Shown here in pieces: positions 26,129 to 35,651 of a stretch of 64,000 bases of DNA. Source of the DNA: Pseudonocardia sediminis (GTDB lineage Bacteria > Actinomycetota > Actinomycetes > Mycobacteriales > Pseudonocardiaceae); assembly GCF_004217185.1 (NCBI RefSeq), contig NZ_SHKL01000001.1:5144001-5208000 (forward strand), written 5' to 3'. A model generated the notes under the pieces. That model was not told the DNA's origin and searched no databases. It worked only from the letters and a program-made list of their open reading frames with translations. Made by a program: the position numbers and the translations under genes. Every line of letters begins with the position of its first letter. Within the stretch, counting starts at the first letter, position 1.

Positions 26129-26170
26129 CGTGCGCGGACATCACCGCCCTGGCAGCGATATCCGCGCACG
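26129..26170. repeat. 42-bp palindrome, family A copy 4
   Basis: It lies 4 nt beyond the stop of the GMC oxidoreductase gene. On the minus-strand transcript all 19 arm positions pair, three of them as G-U. On the plus strand those three would be C-A mismatches. This strand bias, in the direction of the gene that ends here, supports an RNA hairpin role. Confidence 0.88.
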
Positions 26171-26174
26171 GAGG

Positions 26175-27827
26175 TCACATGTCCGGGGCGTCGGCGTTGC
26201 TCGGCGTCGTCTTCTGCGCGGTGATCGCGTCGAACTGGCGCAGGATGTACTCACCGGTGCGCTGCGAGAGCGCACCGATCGTCGACGTCGGGTTGACCGC
26301 CCCACCGGTGGTCAGCGTGCTGCCGTCGACCACGAACAGGTTGGGCACGTCCCAGGTCTGGCACCACTTGTTCAGGACCGAGTCCTCCGGGTTGTTACCC
26401 ATCCGGCAGGTCCCCATCAGGTGCCAGGCCGGCGGCGGGTAGAGGACGCCGGTGTCGTTGGTCTCCACCGCCCCCACCGCGCGGGTGGCCTCGAAGATCT
26501 TCTCGATGCCGTACTTCGCGAGCGCGATGTCGTTCGGGTGCAGCTCGTAGTTGACGTGCGCGGCCGGCAGCCCCGAGGAGTCCTTGACGTCGGGGTTGAG
26601 CGTGACCGTGTTCGTCGCCACCGGCAGGTCCTCACCGAACATGAAGACCATCAGGTGGTTGGCGAAGTGGCCGTCGAAGAACTCGCGGTGCTTCTCGCCC
26701 CACGGCGCCGTGTAGCCGGTGTGCGTGCCCATCGCGGCGTAGGCCGGTCCGAAGCTGCGCGCCACCTGCATGCCGAAACCGTTGACGAATCCCCGGTTGA
26801 CGTCCGTGTGATAGAACTCGTGCGAGTACAGCGGCGCACCGAACGAGCCCTTGAAGCCCTCGATCGGCTCGTCGAACCACGAGTCGCAGAACGCGAACAC
26901 GTGGTGCATCAGGTACTTGCCGACGATCCCGTTCGAGTTCGCCAGCCCGTCCGGGTGCCCCTTCTGGGCGCTCTGCAGCAGCAGGCGCGGGGACCCGATC
27001 CCGTTCGCCGCGAGCACGACGATCTTGGCCCGGACCTCGTGCCGGTCGCCGGTCTTGCGGTCGATGTAGGTCGCGCCGGTGGCCTTGCCGCCCTCGGCGT
27101 TGATCGTCTCGACGCGGGCGTAGGTGCGCAGGTCGGCACCGTGGCGGATCGCGTAGGGCCAGTGGGCGTTCGCCGGGGTGGACAGCGACCCGGTCGGGCT
27201 GCCGGAGAGCTCGTTGCCCATCGCCTGGTCGGCCTTGCGGTTCTCCCGGTCGACGGTGATGACCGCGTTGTCCGACGGCCACCAGTGCCAGCCCAGGTCC
27301 CGCGACGCACGGGCGTACTTGAGCCCGAGCTTGCCGGGCAGCACCTCCGGGTCACGGACGGCCTGCTTGCGGTCCGGGTAGGACGGGTCGCCGATCCGGC
27401 CGGAGATGCCGTAGATCTCGTCGTTCTCGTCGTAGAACGGGGCGAGGTCCTCGTAGCTGATCGGCCAGTCGATCGTGCCCTCGAGGCCGTGCTCGGTGCC
27501 CTTGCGGAAGTCGACCGGCTTGTACCGGGGCCAGTGGCCCGCGTAGTGCATCGTCGAGCCGCCGACGTTGTTCATCATGTACGGCGTCGTCGTCCCGGTC
27601 ACCGGGTAGTCCTCGGGCAGCTGACGCACGTTCGGGTCGTAGGCCCACCCGCGCTGCTTCTCCAGCTCCCACTCGTTGTGGTAGTGCGCGTGGTCGGACG
27701 CGTCCAGCCACGGGCCCTGCTCCAGGCACACCACGTTCACGCCGGCCTTGGCCAGCTTGAGCGCGATGCCGGCCCCGCCGGGGCCTGCGCCGATGATCAG
27801 GACGTCGGTCTCCTCATATGCGGCCAT
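26175..27827 (-). CDS. GMC-family oxidoreductase (MpdB-like diol dehydrogenase)
   Basis: A 550-residue FAD-dependent GMC oxidoreductase. The FAD motif is VLIIGAGPGGAGIALKLAKAGVNVVCLEQG (residues about 8-37); the C-terminal catalytic region is PPAWHLMGTCRMGNNP and FVVDGSTLTTGGAVNPTSTIGALSQR. With the aldehyde dehydrogenase and the small gene between them, it reproduces the mpdC-orf1-mpdB order known from Mycobacterium austroafricanum IFP 2012. There MpdB oxidises 2-methyl-1,2-propanediol and MpdC the resulting 2-hydroxyisobutyraldehyde. Substrate assignment is inference from gene order. ATG 27827 follows the preceding stop by 8 nt. Confidence 0.8.
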   Translation of the reverse strand: MAAYEETDVLIIGAGPGGAGIALKLAKAGVNVVCLEQGPWLDASDHAHYHNEWELEKQRGWAYDPNVRQLPEDYPVTGTTTPYMMNNVGGSTMHYAGHWPRYKPVDFRKGTEHGLEGTIDWPISYEDLAPFYDENDEIYGISGRIGDPSYPDRKQAVRDPEVLPGKLGLKYARASRDLGWHWWPSDNAVITVDRENRKADQAMGNELSGSPTGSLSTPANAHWPYAIRHGADLRTYARVETINAEGGKATGATYIDRKTGDRHEVRAKIVVLAANGIGSPRLLLQSAQKGHPDGLANSNGIVGKYLMHHVFAFCDSWFDEPIEGFKGSFGAPLYSHEFYHTDVNRGFVNGFGMQVARSFGPAYAAMGTHTGYTAPWGEKHREFFDGHFANHLMVFMFGEDLPVATNTVTLNPDVKDSSGLPAAHVNYELHPNDIALAKYGIEKIFEATRAVGAVETNDTGVLYPPPAWHLMGTCRMGNNPEDSVLNKWCQTWDVPNLFVVDGSTLTTGGAVNPTSTIGALSQRTGEYILRQFDAITAQKTTPSNADAPDM

Positions 27828-27835
27828 GGTGCTCC

Positions 27836-28474
27836 TCACTTCGCCCAGGACAGCTGGGACAGGTCGACCCGGACGACCTCGTCGGTCTCCAGGTAGGAAC
27901 CGTGCTCCTCGGCCTGGGCGAGGAGTTCCTCGTCCCAGGGCTCCGTGGTCTGCAGGTAGCCGTAGGGCAGCGGCGGGCCGTGGAAGTCCCGGCCGGCCGG
28001 CAGGTTGTCGTTGATCGCCAGCGTGACCCTCGGGCGCGAGTAGTAGCCGTAGTAGAACAACGCCCGCAGCTGCTCGAACAGCGGATCCTCGGCCTTCTCC
28101 AGCGCGGAGATCGCCTCGGTCCGTCCCGCGACGTCCGCGTCCACGAAGGACTGTCCGAGCTTGTCCAGGCCGGACTTGAACTCGTCCTCGGTGGCGAACG
28201 GGAAGTGCTTGTTCTTGTACCCGCTCGGCGTGACGTACCGGCCGACGAACTCGACCATGCCGATCTCGCTCGCGGTGGGCCACTTCGGGTGCGGCGGGAT
28301 GATCGTGTCCGCCGCGGCCTTGATGACCTTCTCCTGCAGGTCGCTGAACGCGACCGGGTGCAGCAGGCCGCCGATGCGGGGCCGGCCGCTCTCGAAGAAT
28401 CCGCCGGCCTCCCCCGGCAGTGCCGTCTCCTCGGGCGCGCCGAACGGTGCGGGCGCCTCTCCCAATGCACTCAC
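27836..28474 (-). CDS. Gluconate 2-dehydrogenase subunit 3-like protein
   Basis: A 212-residue protein with the subunit-3 pattern FSDLQEKVIKAAADTIIPPHPKWPTASEIGMVEFVGRY and a C-terminal GYYSRPRVTLAIND...FHGPPLPYGYLQTTEPW. Related small proteins accompany GMC dehydrogenases and probably assist their maturation or electron transfer. I see no Tat signal at its N terminus. It occupies the place of orf1 between mpdC and mpdB, with short gaps (8 nt to the GMC gene, 34 nt from the aldehyde dehydrogenase). Confidence 0.78.
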   Translation of the reverse strand: MSALGEAPAPFGAPEETALPGEAGGFFESGRPRIGGLLHPVAFSDLQEKVIKAAADTIIPPHPKWPTASEIGMVEFVGRYVTPSGYKNKHFPFATEDEFKSGLDKLGQSFVDADVAGRTEAISALEKAEDPLFEQLRALFYYGYYSRPRVTLAINDNLPAGRDFHGPPLPYGYLQTTEPWDEELLAQAEEHGSYLETDEVVRVDLSQLSWAK

Positions 28475-28508
28475 GGTGTCTCCTCTCGGGGTCTGAAAGG
28501 GGTGATCG

Positions 28509-30032
28509 CTACAGCGGGGCGCCGGGCCACTCGGTCCCGGCCCTCAACGAGTCGTCGAGGTTGATGCTCACGTGCTTGACCTGGGTGTAGCCGTAGACGG
28601 CCTCGAGGCCCTCCTCGCGTCCGGTGCCGCTCTGCTTGTGCCCGCCGTGCGGGGTCATCGGGAGCTCGCCGAACCAGTCGTTGATCATCACGCCGCCCAC
28701 CTGCAGGCGGCGGGCGGTGGACAGCAGCCGCTTGATGTCGCTGCCGAGCAGCACCGCGAACAGGCCGTAGGGGCTGTCGTTGACGGCCTCGACCAGCTCG
28801 TCCTCGCTGGACCAGGTGATCACCGACGCGACCGGGCCGAAGATCTCCTCCTGGGCGATCCGCGCGGAGTTGGTGACGTCGGTGAAGACGGTCGGCTCGA
28901 CGAAGAAGCCGTTCTCGTCGGTGCCCTCCGGGCGCCCGCCGCCGTAGAACAGCGTGCCCTCGGTCTTGCCGATCTCGATGTACTCGCGGACCTTGTCGTA
29001 CTGGGTCTTCGAGATCAGCGGGCCCATGTCGGTGCCGTCGGCGAACCCGTCACCGATCGTGGTCTCGCGCAGCCGGGCGGTGAGCGCCTCCAGGAACCGG
29101 TCCTTGATGTCGGCGTGCACGAACAGCCGGGTACCGGCCACACAGACCTGCCCGGTGTGCGAGCAGAAGCCCTGCACCGCGGCCTCGACGGCGTCCTCCA
29201 GTCCGGCGTCCGGGAAGACCACCGTCGGGCTCTTGCCCCCGAGCTCCAGGTTGACCTGCGCCACGTGGTCGGCCGCGAGTTTCGCGACCTCCTTGCCCGT
29301 GGCCGTGGAACCGGTGAACGTCACGCCTGCGACGTCCGGGTGCGCGGCCAGCGACGCGCCCGCCTCGGCCCCGTAGCCGGTGACGACGTTGAACACGCCG
29401 TCCGGCAAACCTGCTTCCTTCACCAGCTCGGCGAACTTCAGCGCCGAGAGCGAGGTGTCCTCGGCCGGCTTGACCACGACGGTGTTGCCCAGCGCGAGCG
29501 CCGGCGCGACCGAACGGGTCAGGATCAGCAGCGGGTAGTTCCACGGCACGATGTGCGCGGTCACGCCCAGCGGTTCCAGGATCGTGAACGAGAGCTTGTT
29601 GCCCGGGACCTCGATCTGGCGCCCGCCGACCTTGTCCGCGAGCGAGGCCCAGTAGTCCAGCCAGAGCGGGATCGCCCCGACCAGCTCCTGGGCCTTGGCC
29701 AGGTAGTGCCCGGAGTCCAGGGCCTCCAGGCGCGCCAGCTCGTCGGCGTTCTCGGTGACCTTCGCGGCCAGGGCCCGCAGCAGCGCGGCCCGGCCGAGGG
29801 CGTCGGTGAACTGCCAGTCCACGGCGACGCGTTTGGCCGCCGCGACCGCCCTGTCGACGTCGGTGCCGTCGGCGCGGGGTACCTGGGCGATCGTCTTCCC
29901 GTTGTTCGGGTCGACGGTGCCGAACGTGGCGCCCGCCGAGGCCGGGACGAACGCGCCGTCGATGAACATCGAGGCGTGCTCGGCGGTCCGTGCGTCCTGG
30001 TCCACGGTGAGCCTCTGCTCCGTGGTCGTCAT
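28509..30032 (-). CDS. Aldehyde dehydrogenase (MpdC-like)
   Basis: A 507-residue NAD(P)-dependent aldehyde dehydrogenase. The catalytic Cys297 lies in SHTGQVCVAGTRLFV, the general base Glu263 in NLELGGKSPTVVFP, and the oxyanion Asn in IVPWNYPLLI. The cofactor loop is FTGSTATGKEVAKLA. In this operon the expected substrate is 2-hydroxyisobutyraldehyde, giving 2-hydroxyisobutyrate for the CoA ligase encoded just upstream. That is inferred from the neighbours. A start at GTG/ATG 30032 leaves 27 nt after the ligase stop. Confidence 0.88.
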   Translation of the reverse strand: MTTTEQRLTVDQDARTAEHASMFIDGAFVPASAGATFGTVDPNNGKTIAQVPRADGTDVDRAVAAAKRVAVDWQFTDALGRAALLRALAAKVTENADELARLEALDSGHYLAKAQELVGAIPLWLDYWASLADKVGGRQIEVPGNKLSFTILEPLGVTAHIVPWNYPLLILTRSVAPALALGNTVVVKPAEDTSLSALKFAELVKEAGLPDGVFNVVTGYGAEAGASLAAHPDVAGVTFTGSTATGKEVAKLAADHVAQVNLELGGKSPTVVFPDAGLEDAVEAAVQGFCSHTGQVCVAGTRLFVHADIKDRFLEALTARLRETTIGDGFADGTDMGPLISKTQYDKVREYIEIGKTEGTLFYGGGRPEGTDENGFFVEPTVFTDVTNSARIAQEEIFGPVASVITWSSEDELVEAVNDSPYGLFAVLLGSDIKRLLSTARRLQVGGVMINDWFGELPMTPHGGHKQSGTGREEGLEAVYGYTQVKHVSINLDDSLRAGTEWPGAPL

Positions 30033-30059
30033 TCCTTACCTCCGTGCGTACGGGTGCGT

Positions 30060-31460
30060 CTACTTCTTCTGCGTGTGCTCGCGGTCGTCGATCACGCGCT
30101 TGGCCTTGTGCTCGCTGCGCTCGAACGTGTTCGCCGCGACGACCTCGACGCCGACCCGCAGGCCGACGACGCGGTGCAGGCCGGACGTGGCGGCCTTCTC
30201 GAACTCGGCCGTGTCGGCGTCGGTGCACTCGGCCCGGACCTTGATCTCGTCCATCGAGCCGGTGCGCGAGACCAGGACCCGGTGCTCGCCGCCGTAACCG
30301 GAGATCTCACGCAGGACGTTGTCGATCTCGGTGGGGTACACGTTCTCGCCCCGGATGTGGATCATGTCGTCGATCCGCCCGTAGACGCCCGACGGCAGGC
30401 TCGGGTAGGTGCGCCCGCAGCCGTTGTCCTTCATCTCCCAGCGCGACAGGTCCTTCGACGCGAGCCGGATCATCGGCTGCGAGGTGCGCTCGAGGTGGGT
30501 GTAGACCGGTGTGCCCTCGTCGCCGTAGGGGACGGTGCGGTAGGTGTCCGGGTCGCAGATCTCGTGCCAGACGATGTCCTGCCAGAGCAGCATCCCGTCC
30601 GGGCTGCCGTCGGTCGCCGACGCCGACATGAACGGCGTCATCTCGGCCATCGTCCCGCAGTCCACGACCCGGGTGTCGAACGCCTTCTCGATCTTGTTCC
30701 GCACCGCGGGCACGGACGCGCCGGGCTCGCCGGAGAAGAACATGATCTTGATGCCGAACTCGCGCGGGTCGACCTTCTCCTGCTCCGCGACCTCGGCCAG
30801 GCGCAGTGCGTAGGACGGCGTCGAGTAGAACGCCTTGGGCTGCGTGCGGGTCAGCCACCCGATGGCCCGGCTGGTCATGCCCGACGCACCGGCGCCGTAC
30901 GGGAAGACCTTGCACCGCAGGCGCTCCGCGCCGGACATCGCACCCCAGGACCCGAGGTAGAGCGAGAACAACGCGGAGACGAACACGGTGTCGCCGGGCC
31001 GCACGCCCATCCCCCACAGGATCCGGGCGTGGTTGTCGGCGATGACCTCCCAGTCCCGGCGGCCCATCGCGAAGCCGGTCGGGGTGCCGGTGGTGCCGGA
31101 CGTGCCGTGGATGTGGTGGATCTCCGAGTCCGGCACGCAGATGTAGTCACCGAACGGCGGCGCGTCCACCTGGGACTGACGCAGCTCCTCCTTGACCACG
31201 ACGGGGACCTGCTCGAAGGCCTCCCACGTCGTGATGTCCTTCGGGTCGAGGCCCGCGGCGTCGTACTTGCGCCGATAGAACGGCGAGTTGTCGTAGGCGT
31301 GCTGGATGACCAGCGGCAGCCGCTCCAGGACGGCGGCGTCCCGCTCCTGCGGGTCCATCGTCTCCCGGTTCGGGAACCAGTACGGGCTGCCCGGGTCGGG
31401 GAGATAGTTCTGGTCGTACCCCGCCGGCCAGTGCCACTCCTCCATCTTCTCGCCTGCCAT
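30060..31460 (-). CDS. Phenylacetate-CoA-ligase-type CoA ligase (probable 2-hydroxyisobutyrate-CoA ligase)
   Basis: A 466-residue adenylate-forming enzyme of the PaaK class: N-terminal QHAYDNSPFYRRKYDAAGLDP, ATP loop HGTSGTTGTPTGFA, FFSGEPGASVPAVRNKIEKAF, and C-terminal GRIDDMIHIRGENVYPTEIDNVLREI. Phenylacetate itself is unlikely because no paa genes are near. The gene is coupled (TGATG) to a ThDP-dependent acyl-CoA lyase-type enzyme, and a ligase/lyase pair of this kind degrades 2-hydroxyisobutyrate in Actinomycetospora chiangmaiensis. ATG 31460 was chosen for the GGAGGAAGG site. The family call is firm; the substrate is inferred. Confidence 0.82.
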   Translation of the reverse strand: MAGEKMEEWHWPAGYDQNYLPDPGSPYWFPNRETMDPQERDAAVLERLPLVIQHAYDNSPFYRRKYDAAGLDPKDITTWEAFEQVPVVVKEELRQSQVDAPPFGDYICVPDSEIHHIHGTSGTTGTPTGFAMGRRDWEVIADNHARILWGMGVRPGDTVFVSALFSLYLGSWGAMSGAERLRCKVFPYGAGASGMTSRAIGWLTRTQPKAFYSTPSYALRLAEVAEQEKVDPREFGIKIMFFSGEPGASVPAVRNKIEKAFDTRVVDCGTMAEMTPFMSASATDGSPDGMLLWQDIVWHEICDPDTYRTVPYGDEGTPVYTHLERTSQPMIRLASKDLSRWEMKDNGCGRTYPSLPSGVYGRIDDMIHIRGENVYPTEIDNVLREISGYGGEHRVLVSRTGSMDEIKVRAECTDADTAEFEKAATSGLHRVVGLRVGVEVVAANTFERSEHKAKRVIDDREHTQKK

Positions 31461-33196
31461 CAGACCTTCCTCCGCTCGATCTCTGCGTCGTTCCACGGTG
31501 TGAGTGCCTGGTACTCCCCGACCCAGCCCAGGCCCTTGCCGGCGTCCGGGGACGGGGCGTCCTGGCTGGTCACGACGTCGACGACGGCCGGTGCGTTCTC
31601 GAACGCCCGCTTGAGCGCCCCCTCCAGCTCCGCCGGGTCGGTCACCCGCTCGCCGTGCGCGCCGAGGGCCCGGCCGAGGGCGGCGTAGTCGTTGCCCTCC
31701 AGCTCGGTGCCGACGACGAGGCCGTAGTTCTCGTCCTGGTCGAAGCGCTCGATGTTCCAGGCCGAGTTGTTGGAGACGATCACGACGATCGGGGCGCCGT
31801 GGCGCACCGCCGTGTTGACCTCCATGGCGTTGATGCCGAACGCGCCGTCGCCCGTCACCGCGACCGCGGGCTTCCCGGGCCGGGCCAGCGCCGCCGCGAT
31901 CGCGAACGGGACGCCGACGCCGAGGCAGCCGAACGCACCGGCGTCGAGGTAGCGCACGTGCGACGGGACGCCGAGGCGGGCGAAGCTCAGGAAGTCTCCG
32001 CCGTCGGCGACGACGGTGGCGCCGTCGAGGTCCTGCGCCTGCAGCGCCGCGAAGATCCGGTTCGGGTGCATCTTGCCGTCCGAGCCGGCCTCGGCCGAGG
32101 CGAGCTTGTCGCGGTAGCCGGAGAACCGCTCCAGGTGCGCGGCACGCAGCTCGTCGCGCCAGTGCCCTCGGTCCTCGTCGCCGTCACCCGAGACCTGCTC
32201 GGCCAGCGCGCCGAGGGTGGCGCCGACGTCGGCGAGCACCTCGACCTCACCGCGGCGGTTGTCGTAGAGCTCGCTCGCCGAGTCCGAGATCCGCACGAAC
32301 CGCGCGGACGGGAACGCGACCGGGGATCCGAACCCGAGCTGGTAGTCGAGCTGGCGCCCGACGGTGATCACGAGGTCCGCGTCGCGCATGACCCGCGAGC
32401 GCAGCGCGCCGACCACGGCCGGGTGCGACTCCGGGACCAGCCCGCGTCCCTCCTGGGTGTCCAGGTACGCGGCGCCGGAGGCGTCGAGGAACCGGACGAG
32501 CTCCTCCTGCGCCCGGCGCGCCCCACGGCCGGTGATCACGACCGGCTTGCTCGCCCCGCGCACCAGCTCGGCGACGGCGGCCACGTCGTCGGGGTGCGGC
32601 AGCGACCGCCGGCGCGGAGGCAGGCGCAGGTGCTCGTCGAGCACGACGGCGGCGGGCACCGTCTCGCGCAGGACGTCGGTCGGGATCTCCAGGTAGACCG
32701 GGCCCGGCTCGGACGCGTCGCCGGTGGCGCGGGCCCAGCCCTCGTCGAACTCGCGGAGCATCTCGTCGGCCACCCGCAGCGTTCGGGACTGCCGTGTGAC
32801 CGGACGCAGGATCTCGGTGTGCGGGATGTCCTGCAGCGGGTGCTTGTTGGCCTGCGCCCGCGGCGGGCAGCCGCCGATCAGGATCAGCGGGATCCGCGAG
32901 ACCGAGGCGTTCGCGACCGCGGTGACGGTGTTGGTCACCCCGGGCCCGGCGGTGGCCAGCGCGATCCCCATCTCGCCGGTGATCTCCGAGTGCGCGTGCG
33001 CCATGTGGACGGCGGCGGCCTCGTCCCGGACGTCGACGATCTGCACGCCGAGCCGGGCCAGACGGTCCCAGATGGGTTGGATGTGGCCGCCCTGCAGGCC
33101 GAACACGCGTCTCACCCCGCGTTCGTGCAGGAACCTGGCGATCAGCTCCGCGGCGGTCCGTGACGCCGGGGTGGAGTCGGACGTGTCCTGAGCCAT
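31460..33196 (-). CDS. ThDP-dependent 2-hydroxyacyl-CoA lyase (probable 2-hydroxyisobutyryl-CoA lyase)
   Basis: A 578-residue three-domain ThDP enzyme. Activating Glu59 lies in [15 protein letters not shown], and the ThDP/Mg motif runs from GDG at 449 to NN at 477 ([12 protein letters not shown]...SNNSAW). Annotation pipelines would probably call it acetolactate synthase, but ilvB is present elsewhere. The coupled CoA ligase and downstream aldehyde dehydrogenase instead fit the actinobacterial lyase that splits 2-hydroxyisobutyryl-CoA into acetone and formyl-CoA. Oxalyl-CoA decarboxylase is an alternative. It is first gene of a five-gene minus-strand operon; a CTGAATTCAG palindrome lies 68 nt upstream. 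Confidence 0.8.
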
Positions 33197-33263
33197 GCAG
33201 CGTGCTCCTCGTCGAGCGTTCGATCGTGGCGGTACGTGACCCGCCTCACCACCTTGGGGCATA

Positions 33264-33273
33264 CTGAATTCAG
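33264..33273. promoter_or_regulatory. Candidate GntR operator, lyase operon/regulator
   Basis: CTGAATTCAG, a perfect 10-bp palindrome in an otherwise GC-rich spacer between the divergent lyase operon (start 33196) and GntR gene (start 33404). The same core, extended to 14 bp, occurs upstream of the MFS gene at 34201-34214. Two copies flanking one regulator gene suggest its binding site. Confidence 0.65.
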
Positions 33274-33403
33274 ACCGCAACTCGGAGCACGATGTGCCCG
33301 GGGCACCACCCCGAACCCCGGTGGAGGCTCGATAGCCTGAACGGCCAGGTCCGACGAGATCCCGCAGGAACGAGCGAGGTGGCGCGATGCACACGGTGCC
33401 GCG

Positions 33404-34078
33404 ATGACGGCGCTCCCCACCCCGCCGTCACGCGTCGAGCAGGTCTACGACGCGATCGTCGACGACATCTGCACGGGCCGTCTCGCGCCCGGCACCCGGC
33501 TGCGGCAGGAGGAGCTGGCCGAACGGTTCAACGTCTCCCGCCAGCCGGTCCAGCAGGCCCTGTTGCTGCTGCGGACCCAGGGCCTGCTGCGTGACACCGG
33601 CCGGCGCGGCCTGGAGGTCGCCCCCGTCGACCGCGAGTTCGTCCAGCACCTCTACGGCCTGCGCGCGGTGATGGACGGCTACGCCGCGCGCTGCGCCGCG
33701 GGCAAGCTCTCACCGGCTGCTCTCGATCGCGGGCGGTCGCTCGTCATCGCAGGTCAGGAGGCCGAGCGGGACCGGGCCTACGCCCACATGGTGGGCTCCG
33801 ACGTCGAGTTCCACCAGTTCGTCATGGAGCAGTCGGGCAACCCGCTACTGGTGGAGAGCGCAGGAGTCATCTGGCGCAACGTGCAGCGTGTGATGGGCGA
33901 GCTGCTCTACCGGGGCGGCGCACCGAGCTGGGTGTGGGAGGACCACGCGGCGATCTTCGACGCGATCGCCTCCGGTGCCCCGGACGCCGCCGAGCGGCTC
34001 GCGCGCCGGCACGCCGAGCACGGCGAGGAGCTCATCCTCGACGCGCTGGACTCGCTCCCGGCCGTCGACCGGGCCTGA
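33404..34078 (+). CDS. GntR-family regulator (FCD subfamily)
   Basis: A 224-residue regulator. The N-terminal winged helix is [53 protein letters not shown], followed by an all-helical FCD ligand domain ([17 protein letters not shown]...[17 protein letters not shown]...[14 protein letters not shown]). FadR/FCD proteins usually bind carboxylic acids or acyl metabolites. It is divergent from the hydroxyacyl-CoA lyase operon and upstream of the MFS gene, so the natural reading is a pathway repressor responding to a hydroxy acid or CoA intermediate. Confidence 0.9.
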
Positions 34079-34195
34079 CGGCCCCGCCCGGCCCTCGCCC
34101 CGACGCCGGGCGACCGTGACTCCGGCGGTGCCTGGACGCGCGGACGCGGGGCTCAACGTGGTGCGGTGAGGCGGCATCCGCGTCGTCGGTACATC

Positions 34196-34214
34196 TTGAC
34201 TTCTGAATTCAGAA
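34196..34214 (+). promoter_or_regulatory. MFS gene promoter element with candidate GntR operator
   Basis: TTGACT (34196-34201) is followed directly by TTCTGAATTCAGAA (34201-34214), a perfect 14-bp palindrome sharing its core with 33264-33273. A repressor bound there would cover the region between -35 and -10. No clear -10 could be picked by eye. Confidence 0.6.
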
Positions 34215-34292
34215 TGTCCCAGAGTGTGCGTATTCGCGCCGCTCGTCCGCGGCCGGGCACCCCTGGCACTTCAAGGATGAGGAGCCGAACCG

Positions 34293-35603
34293 ATGCCGTC
34301 CACCGCTGACCCCGACCAGGTCTTCCGGAAGGTCGCCTGGCGGCTCGTCCCGTTCCTGTTCCTCTGCTACGCCGTCGCCTACCTCGACCGCGTCAACGTC
34401 GGCTTCGCCAAGCTGCAGATGCAGGACGAGCTGTGGTTCTCCGACGTCGTCTACGGCATCGGCGCCGGGATCTTCTTCGTCGGCTACATCCTGTTCGAAG
34501 TCCCGAGCAACGTCATCCTGCACAAGGTCGGCGCGCGGCGGTGGATCGCGCGGATCATGGTCAGCTGGGGCGTGGTGTCGGCGGCGATGGCGCTGGCGAA
34601 CTCGGAGTGGACGTTCTACCTGCTGCGGTTCCTGCTCGGCGTCGCCGAGGCCGGGTTCATCCCGGGCATCCTGCTGTACCTGACGTACTGGTTCCCGGCG
34701 CACCGCCGCGGACGGATCACCGCGCTGTTCCTCACCGCGATCCCGGTGGCCACGATCTTCGGCGGGCCGCTGTCGGGCTGGATCATGACCTCGCTCGGCG
34801 GGGCCGGCGGACTGGCCGGGTGGCAGTGGCTGTTCGTGGTGGAGGCGATCCCGGCGGTGCTGCTCGGGTTCGTCGTCCTGCGCCGTCTCGACGACGACGT
34901 CGCGTCCGCCACCTGGCTCACCGACGCCGAGAAGACCGTCGTGACCGAGGCCGTCGCCGAGGGTGAGCAGGCGAAGCCGGACGCGCACGCCCGCGTCCGG
35001 GACACGCTGCGGAGCGGGACGATGTGGCTGCTCGGCGGGATCTACTTCTGCGTCGCGCTGGGCATCTACACGATCAGCTTCTGGCTGCCGACGATCATCT
35101 CCGACAGCGGCGTCGACTCCGCCCTGACCGTCGGGCTGCTCTCGGCGCTGCCCTACCTCGTCGCCGTGGTCGCGATGGTCGCCGTCGCGGCGCACGGGGA
35201 CCGCACCGGTGAACGTCGCTGGCACACCGCGGTGCCCTGTGCCGTCGGCGGGCTCGGGCTGGTGGCCACGGCGATGTCGCTGCAGAGCACGGTGTTCGCC
35301 CTGCTCGCGCTGACCGTGGCCGCCGCCGCGATCTCCAGCGCACAGGCCGCGTTCTGGAGCCTGCCCTCGGCGCTGCTCACCGGGGCCGGGGCGGCCGCGG
35401 GGATCGCGCTGGTCAACTCCGTCGGCAACGTCTCCGGCGCGGTCAGCACGTCGCTGGTCGGGTTCCTGACCTCGCTGACCGGGAGCACCGCGTCGAGCCT
35501 GTACCTGTTCGGGGCCGTGCTGGTGGTCGGCGGGGCTCTGGTCCTGGTCCTCTCCCCGTCGCGGGTCGACGACCGGACGGGGCGCAGCACCACCGACGCC
35601 TGA
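34293..35603 (+). CDS. MFS transporter (anion:cation symporter type)
   Basis: A 436-residue permease with about 12 hydrophobic segments. The opening WRLVPFLFLCYAVAYLDRVNVGFAKLQM is the signature of the ACS (anion:cation symporter / phthalate-glucarate-type) MFS family, and a loop between helices 2 and 3 reads FEVPSNVILHKVGARRWIARIM. Family members carry organic acids. Placement after the GntR gene with a shared operator palindrome suggests uptake of the hydroxy acid used by the adjacent operon. ATG 34293 follows GGATGAGGAG. Palindrome A5 follows its stop. Confidence 0.88.
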   Translation: MPSTADPDQVFRKVAWRLVPFLFLCYAVAYLDRVNVGFAKLQMQDELWFSDVVYGIGAGIFFVGYILFEVPSNVILHKVGARRWIARIMVSWGVVSAAMALANSEWTFYLLRFLLGVAEAGFIPGILLYLTYWFPAHRRGRITALFLTAIPVATIFGGPLSGWIMTSLGGAGGLAGWQWLFVVEAIPAVLLGFVVLRRLDDDVASATWLTDAEKTVVTEAVAEGEQAKPDAHARVRDTLRSGTMWLLGGIYFCVALGIYTISFWLPTIISDSGVDSALTVGLLSALPYLVAVVAMVAVAAHGDRTGERRWHTAVPCAVGGLGLVATAMSLQSTVFALLALTVAAAAISSAQAAFWSLPSALLTGAGAAAGIALVNSVGNVSGAVSTSLVGFLTSLTGSTASSLYLFGAVLVVGGALVLVLSPSRVDDRTGRSTTDA

Positions 35604-35609
35604 CCCGGT

Positions 35610-35651
35610 CGTGAGTGGATATCGCTGCGGGAGCAGTGATATCCGCGCACG
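35610..35651. repeat. 42-bp palindrome, family A copy 5
   Basis: It sits between convergent genes, 6 nt after the MFS stop and 2 nt from the MetE-like stop. Arms CGTGAGTGGATATCGCTGC and GCAGTGATATCCGCGCACG: the plus-strand RNA pairs at 18 of 19 positions (two G-U), the minus-strand RNA at 16. Confidence 0.88.

Follow-up and report, generated by a model that had tools for sequence, protein, structure and literature searches.

A probable 2-hydroxyisobutyrate degradation locus in Pseudonocardia sediminis and its predicted GntR/FCD operator

Which compound is degraded by the products of a five-gene operon built around a thiamine diphosphate (ThDP)-dependent lyase, and how is its expression controlled? 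The question is raised by a locus of Pseudonocardia sediminis, located at positions 26,175 to 35,603 of a 64,000-nucleotide stretch of its genome (contig NZ_SHKL01000001.1, positions 5,144,001 to 5,208,000; the whole stretch is called the window here). Judged from its sequence, the locus very probably encodes conversion of 2-methylpropane-1,2-diol (MPD) via 2-hydroxyisobutyrate (2-HIBA) to acetone and formyl-CoA, under control of a GntR/FCD regulator and the palindrome CTGAATTCAG. This palindrome is rare, and the regulator apparently uses it as a DNA switch; it also occurs next to lyases of this kind in distant bacteria. Lyase-dependent breakdown of branched hydroxy acids has been studied in one actinobacterium, and a relative of it appears to have the complete route; new is that the locus gains a transporter and a testable predicted operator. 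The operator ties the locus to many proteobacterial lyase loci with an unrelated ligase, which makes the natural substrate and the spread of the pathway directly testable. There is also a demand for such lyases in one-carbon chemistry (PMC8760513).

The locus consists of the following features:

26175..27827, minus strand: MpdB-like GMC flavoprotein, putative MPD dehydrogenase large subunit (550 aa; GMC_oxred_C/N)
27836..28474, minus strand: putative MPD dehydrogenase small subunit, Gluconate_2-dh3 family (212 aa, GTG start; PF13618)
28509..30032, minus strand: MpdC-like putative 2-hydroxyisobutyraldehyde dehydrogenase of the aldehyde dehydrogenase family (507 aa; PF00171; resembles MpdC of Actinomycetospora chiangmaiensis)
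30060..31460, minus strand: putative 2-hydroxyisobutyrate-CoA ligase, HCL (466 aa; structure 6hdw; relatives in A. chiangmaiensis and Methylibium petroleiphilum PM1)
31460..33196, minus strand: putative ThDP-dependent 2-hydroxyacyl-CoA (2-hydroxyisobutyryl-CoA) lyase (578 aa; NF058623; AcHACL structure 7pt1; active-site residues)
33264..33273, no strand: predicted operator CTGAATTCAG in the lyase-gntR interval, one of two exact copies in the genome
33404..34078, plus strand: GntR/FCD-family regulator, presumed repressor (224 aa; PF00392, PF07729)
34203..34212, no strand: predicted operator CTGAATTCAG 5' of the transporter gene, with TTGACTT directly ahead, the other of the two genome copies
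34293..35603, plus strand: major facilitator superfamily (MFS) transporter, presumed 2-HIBA uptake (436 aa; PF07690; own operator copy)

All seven genes have intact frames and are separated by short gaps. The first-pass annotation had described a five-gene minus-strand operon completed by a GntR regulator and a transporter, and this layout stands: the ATG of HCL overlaps the stop codon of the lyase gene, gntR and the MFS gene lie divergently on the plus strand, and the outer limits are the last base of the GMC gene (26175) and the last base of the transporter gene (35603). Raw open reading frame limits were overlong for the lyase and GMC genes, starting upstream; the refined starts match those of relatives.

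In the proposed route, MPD would be oxidized to 2-hydroxyisobutyraldehyde by MpdB with the small subunit, and the aldehyde to 2-HIBA by MpdC. HCL would convert 2-HIBA and ATP to 2-hydroxyisobutyryl-CoA (2-HIB-CoA), which the lyase would split into acetone and formyl-CoA. Enzymes whose genes lie elsewhere in the genome would take over from there, a Mim-type monooxygenase for acetone and a selenocysteine formate dehydrogenase for formate. Sitting on CTGAATTCAG, the GntR/FCD protein most likely represses the operon and the divergent transporter gene, and 2-HIBA or its CoA ester would release it. The activities, substrate, inducer, repression and operator binding are what we infer here; homology, active-site identity, synteny, downstream genes and operator distribution are what we observed.

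The lyase and its partner enzymes

The lyase reaches 981.8 bits with the NCBIfam equivalog for 2-hydroxyacyl-CoA lyase (NF058623, cut-off 600). Its best solved chain is AcHACL (7pt1, 860 bits), the next enzyme kind following at 239 bits. Active-site residues were compared in an alignment of 83 rows, comprising the window, 80 lyase loci and homologues from M. petroleiphilum and Cupriavidus, and numbered after the 590-aa lyase of A. chiangmaiensis (locus L018); the 80 loci are the best 80 of 218 relatives and are related to one another. All 18 published AcHACL residues that were checked are identical in the window lyase. Kept are E65, Q128 and E493, the size-limiting L127 and I492, and L566 and V569 of the lid, whose region is present; the six residues occupying what is the ADP site in oxalyl-CoA decarboxylase (OXC) are likewise identical to those of AcHACL. 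Roles of these residues are described in PMC8760513 and PMC13327070, and E493 is, according to PMC8760513, not present in OXC.

The first-pass annotation had singled out OXC and acetolactate synthase as relatives that would speak against a lyase. They belong to the same superfamily, and their models do respond to the protein: acetolactate synthase with 364 bits, two OXC models with 247 and 232 bits. The respective cut-offs, however, are 587, 557 and 739, E493 and the residues filling the OXC ADP site are present, and a separate acetolactate synthase large subunit (1138 bits) is encoded in the same window. We thus regard an OXC or acetolactate synthase of ordinary metabolism as ruled out, with a probability next to zero, by model scores, closest structure and active-site residues.

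In the lyase tree, the window lies within a set of 18 HCL-bearing rows (Shimodaira-Hasegawa-like approximate likelihood ratio test, SH-aLRT, 99), made up of 17 Pseudonocardiaceae and one Solirubrobacterales metagenome-assembled genome (MAG). Its nearest relatives among the best 80 of 218 are Pseudonocardia endophytica (L009) and P. sp. ICBG1293 (L027). The tree was used for nearest relatives only, since branches of the own-paralogue outgroup are very long and rooting is unsure.

The best solved chain for HCL is 2-hydroxyisobutyryl-CoA synthetase (6hdw, 651 bits; best PaaK 221 bits), and the PaaK equivalog is not reached (256 bits vs 646). HCL is 74% identical to its counterpart in A. chiangmaiensis and 59% to the PM1 ligase. 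The MpdC-like protein matches Aldedh (PF00171, 544 bits) and has the LELGGK and GQVC motifs. The small subunit matches Gluconate_2-dh3 (PF13618) with 36.0 bits at a cut-off of 23.4; inspection of its N-terminus by eye revealed no twin-arginine motif. The GMC protein contains GMC_oxred_C and GMC_oxred_N, and its closest solved chains, subunits of glucose and fructose dehydrogenases, are distant (about 148 bits). MpdB reduces NAD(P)+ according to a table in PMC7176365; the kinship of the GMC protein to these subunits and its Gluconate_2-dh3 partner make another electron acceptor possible. A mycofactocin maturase scores over cut-off in both the P. sediminis and A. chiangmaiensis genomes, which is a lead only.

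Both GntR (PF00392) and FCD (PF07729) are over cut-off in the regulator. The transporter matches MFS_1 (PF07690); its best NCBIfam models, TIGR00893 (D-galactonate, 322 bits) and an HpaX-type model (316 bits), both stay below cut-off. A putative anion:cation symporter, it has an operator copy to itself, in keeping with a possible role in 2-HIBA uptake.

The remaining steps have candidate genes elsewhere in the genome. Three of its proteins matched PF02332; two of them are large chains resembling MimA, and the third is MimC-like. The two MimA-like proteins are 90 and 88% identical to MimA from the only PF02332 cluster of A. chiangmaiensis, which is taken to be the Mim (acetone monooxygenase) cluster of PMC7176365. 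One MimA copy is clustered with MimC (81.5%) and with relatives of the genes between and behind (74, 72 and 82%). At the threshold applied, the second (88%; L133, G000:C1:2184000-2199000) stands without further relatives of that A. chiangmaiensis cluster next to it. Formate dehydrogenase of the selenocysteine type is 75% identical over 621 aa, with one in-frame TGA at the same position as in A. chiangmaiensis, and tRNA-Sec is found with 79 bits, over the gathering score. Formation of acetone and formyl-CoA from 2-HIBA, as proposed at first pass, is thus strongly supported by family, active-site identity, synteny and the acetone and formate genes.

The alternative route through a B12-dependent 2-HIB-CoA mutase has no support in the three compared of the four PF01642 mutase matches of the genome (the fourth adjoins the first). 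These three are 79, 77 and 84% identical to A. chiangmaiensis counterparts and 42, 34 and 37% to PM1 HcmA (mutase large subunit), and none of the seven genes encodes a mutase.

Two other substrates have to be weighed. The same enzymes could serve mainly a C5 compound such as 2-hydroxy-2-methylbutyrate or a diol derived from isoprene; the products would then be formyl-CoA and either butanone or methyl vinyl ketone. For AcHACL acting on 2-hydroxy-2-methylbutyryl-CoA, one report gives equal rates and another 70% of kcat (PMC7176365, PMC13327070), isoprene-linked use is proposed in PMC7176365, and the window lyase has the AcHACL residues at the checked sites. The MpdB/MpdC pair, on the other hand, is the one tied to MPD oxidation (PMC7176365), and the only PF02332 large chains of the genome are the two MimA-like ones, so that we consider a mainly C5 role rather unlikely. 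Still less probable is a role of the cluster in the mineralisation of fuel ethers, tert-butanol or isobutene. MPD and 2-HIBA are indeed intermediates of those routes (PMC7176365), but no enzyme attacking an ether, tert-butanol or isobutene is encoded by the seven genes, and the PF02332 matches are Mim-like (the search did not extend to cytochromes P450, AlkB or Rieske enzymes). Growth on fuel ethers or isobutene-derived compounds, which the first-pass annotation had read from the cluster, is therefore not retained.

The predicted operator

The palindrome CTGAATTCAG is the predicted operator of the GntR/FCD regulator. Exactly two copies are present in the whole 6.6 Mb genome, one before the lyase operon and the other before the transporter gene. 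Among the 80 lyase loci, 48 have a GntR relative, and the region from 300 bp upstream to 30 bp inside its gene was scanned. Exact CTGAATTCAG was found in 32 of these 48, and at most one mismatch in 46 (misses: L068, L077), compared with 110 and 194, respectively, of 9600 stretches of 330 bp drawn at random from these loci without removal of the true sites. Only one of the 32 loci without a GntR relative (L037) has exact copies.

A similar picture is seen across the genus. The lyase is over cut-off in 6 of 62 genomes, that of P. sediminis included, and all six carry the palindrome, as opposed to 11 of 56 lyase-free genomes (Fisher p 0.0002, relatedness not corrected). The seven copies in the lyase-bearing genomes comprise one beside each lyase gene and the one before the window's transporter gene; the reversed pattern turns up as a single copy in each of 6 genomes of the genus. 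Eight genomes searched hold one to three copies of CTGAATTCAG apiece.

TTGAC directly precedes the palindrome in seven of eight Pseudonocardiaceae lyase sites examined (the window's own lyase site, with TTGCGG, is the exception) and at the transporter, so that a repressor sitting there would mask a -35-like box. No terminator was found at the operators. In L027 and L149, copies with one mismatch stand ahead of the transporter relative. In L016 the transporter relative is located elsewhere, with no such site in the stretch examined, and L148 has no transporter relative. Among the literature matches listed for CTGAATTCAG there was no title on this regulator, nor one on this system among those listed for TGAATTCA with GntR, most subscription journals being outside the scope of the search.

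Several observations weigh against an MPD and 2-HIBA pathway controlled through CTGAATTCAG. A betaproteobacterial homologue without HCL (L029) scores 978.8 bits with NF058623, so this equivalog cannot separate subgroups of lyases, and AcHACL accepts the C5 analogue as well. MpdB relatives (at least 60% identity) occur in 17 loci, seven of which have no MpdC relative passing the cut, and the mutase comparison covers three of the four matches. The 11 lyase-free genomes of the genus hold 12 copies of the palindrome, and a sigma-70 consensus scan at the operators gave no promoter. With these included, we still hold the MPD and 2-HIBA pathway under this control to be very probable. Separately, in the Actinomycetospora loci L010, L013, L014, L017, L021, L022 and L023, the lyase, HCL, small subunit and MpdB were found and no MpdC relative was detected.

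A short repeat, GTGCGCGGATATC, is situated at both ends of the locus (26157-26169 and 35638-35650). This 13-mer is a repetitive extragenic palindromic (REP)-like element, with 38 + 43 occurrences in the genome, often as inverted pairs whose starts are 27 bases apart; the reversed control gave 0.

Ligases beside related lyases

Within 1.5 kb of the lyase gene, 57 of the 80 loci carry a FadD-type ligase, 19 carry HCL, four carry neither and none carries both. The FadD type is defined by PF00501 and PF13193 and by 53-70% identity to the copy in L029 (the query, itself counted); the loci that have it beside the lyase fall within the range L029-L088. Of the 19 HCL loci, 17 are actinobacterial; the other two are Hyphomicrobiales MAGs (L026, L028). 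Actinobacterial loci devoid of HCL are L025 and the Acidimicrobiales MAGs L069 and L085, the latter two with the FadD type. Among the four loci with neither ligase, L055 and L079 have the lyase gene less than 1 kb from the locus edge, while L025 (Rubrobacter marinus) and L045, where a gntR gene directly precedes the lyase gene, count as genuine exceptions on the available DNA.

Among the 64 rows that do not belong to the main actinobacterial group, each checked active-site position has at most one departing row, and E493 none. As these residues hardly vary, the substrate of those lyases is probably a similar short 2-hydroxyacyl-CoA. One GntR/FCD-CTGAATTCAG code could govern a 2-HIB-CoA-type lyase pathway in both Actinomycetota and Pseudomonadota, with unrelated ligases swapped: HCL in most actinobacterial loci seen, the FadD type in most proteobacterial ones. 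We give this proposal, its implications included, even chances. Exact CTGAATTCAG is absent from the examined gntR regions of PM1 and Cupriavidus, which speaks against a universal code. Should the proposal be true, nature would widely offer short-chain tertiary hydroxy acids as a carbon source, and 2-HIBA would be activated by a second, as yet undescribed kind of CoA ligase, the FadD type.

Among the few neighbours scanned, no shared pathway theme was apparent near the proteobacterial lyase-ligase pairs. In an Aquincola MAG, the next gene after those for the lyase and the FadD-type ligase encodes an epoxide hydrolase (EHN; L036:13747-15288), which could supply diol from an alkene epoxide. An acetone carboxylase was considered beside the lyase in L087 (a Hydantoinase_B gene and its neighbour) and rejected: caprolactamase models fit best, below cut-off, and hydantoinase structures are also preferred, acetone carboxylase being much weaker. 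A literature search combining lyase, acyl-CoA synthetase and gene cluster, again with most subscription journals outside its scope, gave unrelated papers only.

Comparison with known systems

The hcl region of M. petroleiphilum PM1, a mutase route with hcl, hcmAB and meaH, shares with the window a ligase (59%) and a GntR protein (43% over 176 aa); in contrast to the window's seven genes, it carries B12 mutase genes. A 49% lyase homologue also lies inside the mutase region of PM1 plasmid RPME01 (L125:8782-19314), together with gntR and genes for a B12-binding subunit, an AMP-binding ligase, meaB, a mutase, a gamma carbonic anhydrase and a 3-hydroxybutyryl-CoA dehydrogenase. The isobutylene plasmid cluster of Mycolicibacterium sp. 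ELW1 has, by description, a 2-HIBA pathway, a FadR/GntR regulator, an MFS transporter and a ThDP lyase in common with the window; PMC13188929 considers the mutase its likely main route and the lyase a possible minor one.

The closest studied system is that of A. chiangmaiensis DSM 45062 (PMC7176365). During growth on 2-HIBA its cluster proteins are induced, acetone and formate are products, and the lyase is active when expressed in Escherichia coli; the strain is reported there to be without 2-HIB-CoA mutase. Its MpdB and MpdC are given as 76 and 72% identical to the pair of Mycolicibacterium austroafricanum, linked to MPD oxidation (all PMC7176365). The five genes and the divergent gntR are arranged as in the window, with identities of 70% (lyase), 74% (HCL), 83% (MpdC), 67% (small subunit), 86% (MpdB) and 66% (GntR); the match of the lyase/ligase pair to that of Actinomycetospora, noticed at first pass, is borne out. 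Common to both are further the 18 checked lyase residues, genes for Mim-type monooxygenase and selenocysteine-type formate dehydrogenase, and the operator before the lyase gene. Only the window has a transporter gene with its own operator beside gntR; no transporter relative was found in the 21.7 kb of L018. Lyase-HCL clusters were already reported from Pseudonocardia, for example EC080625-04, in 2020 (PMC7176365); these are, by description and at genus level, of the same kind as that of the window, which therefore belongs to a kind already known.

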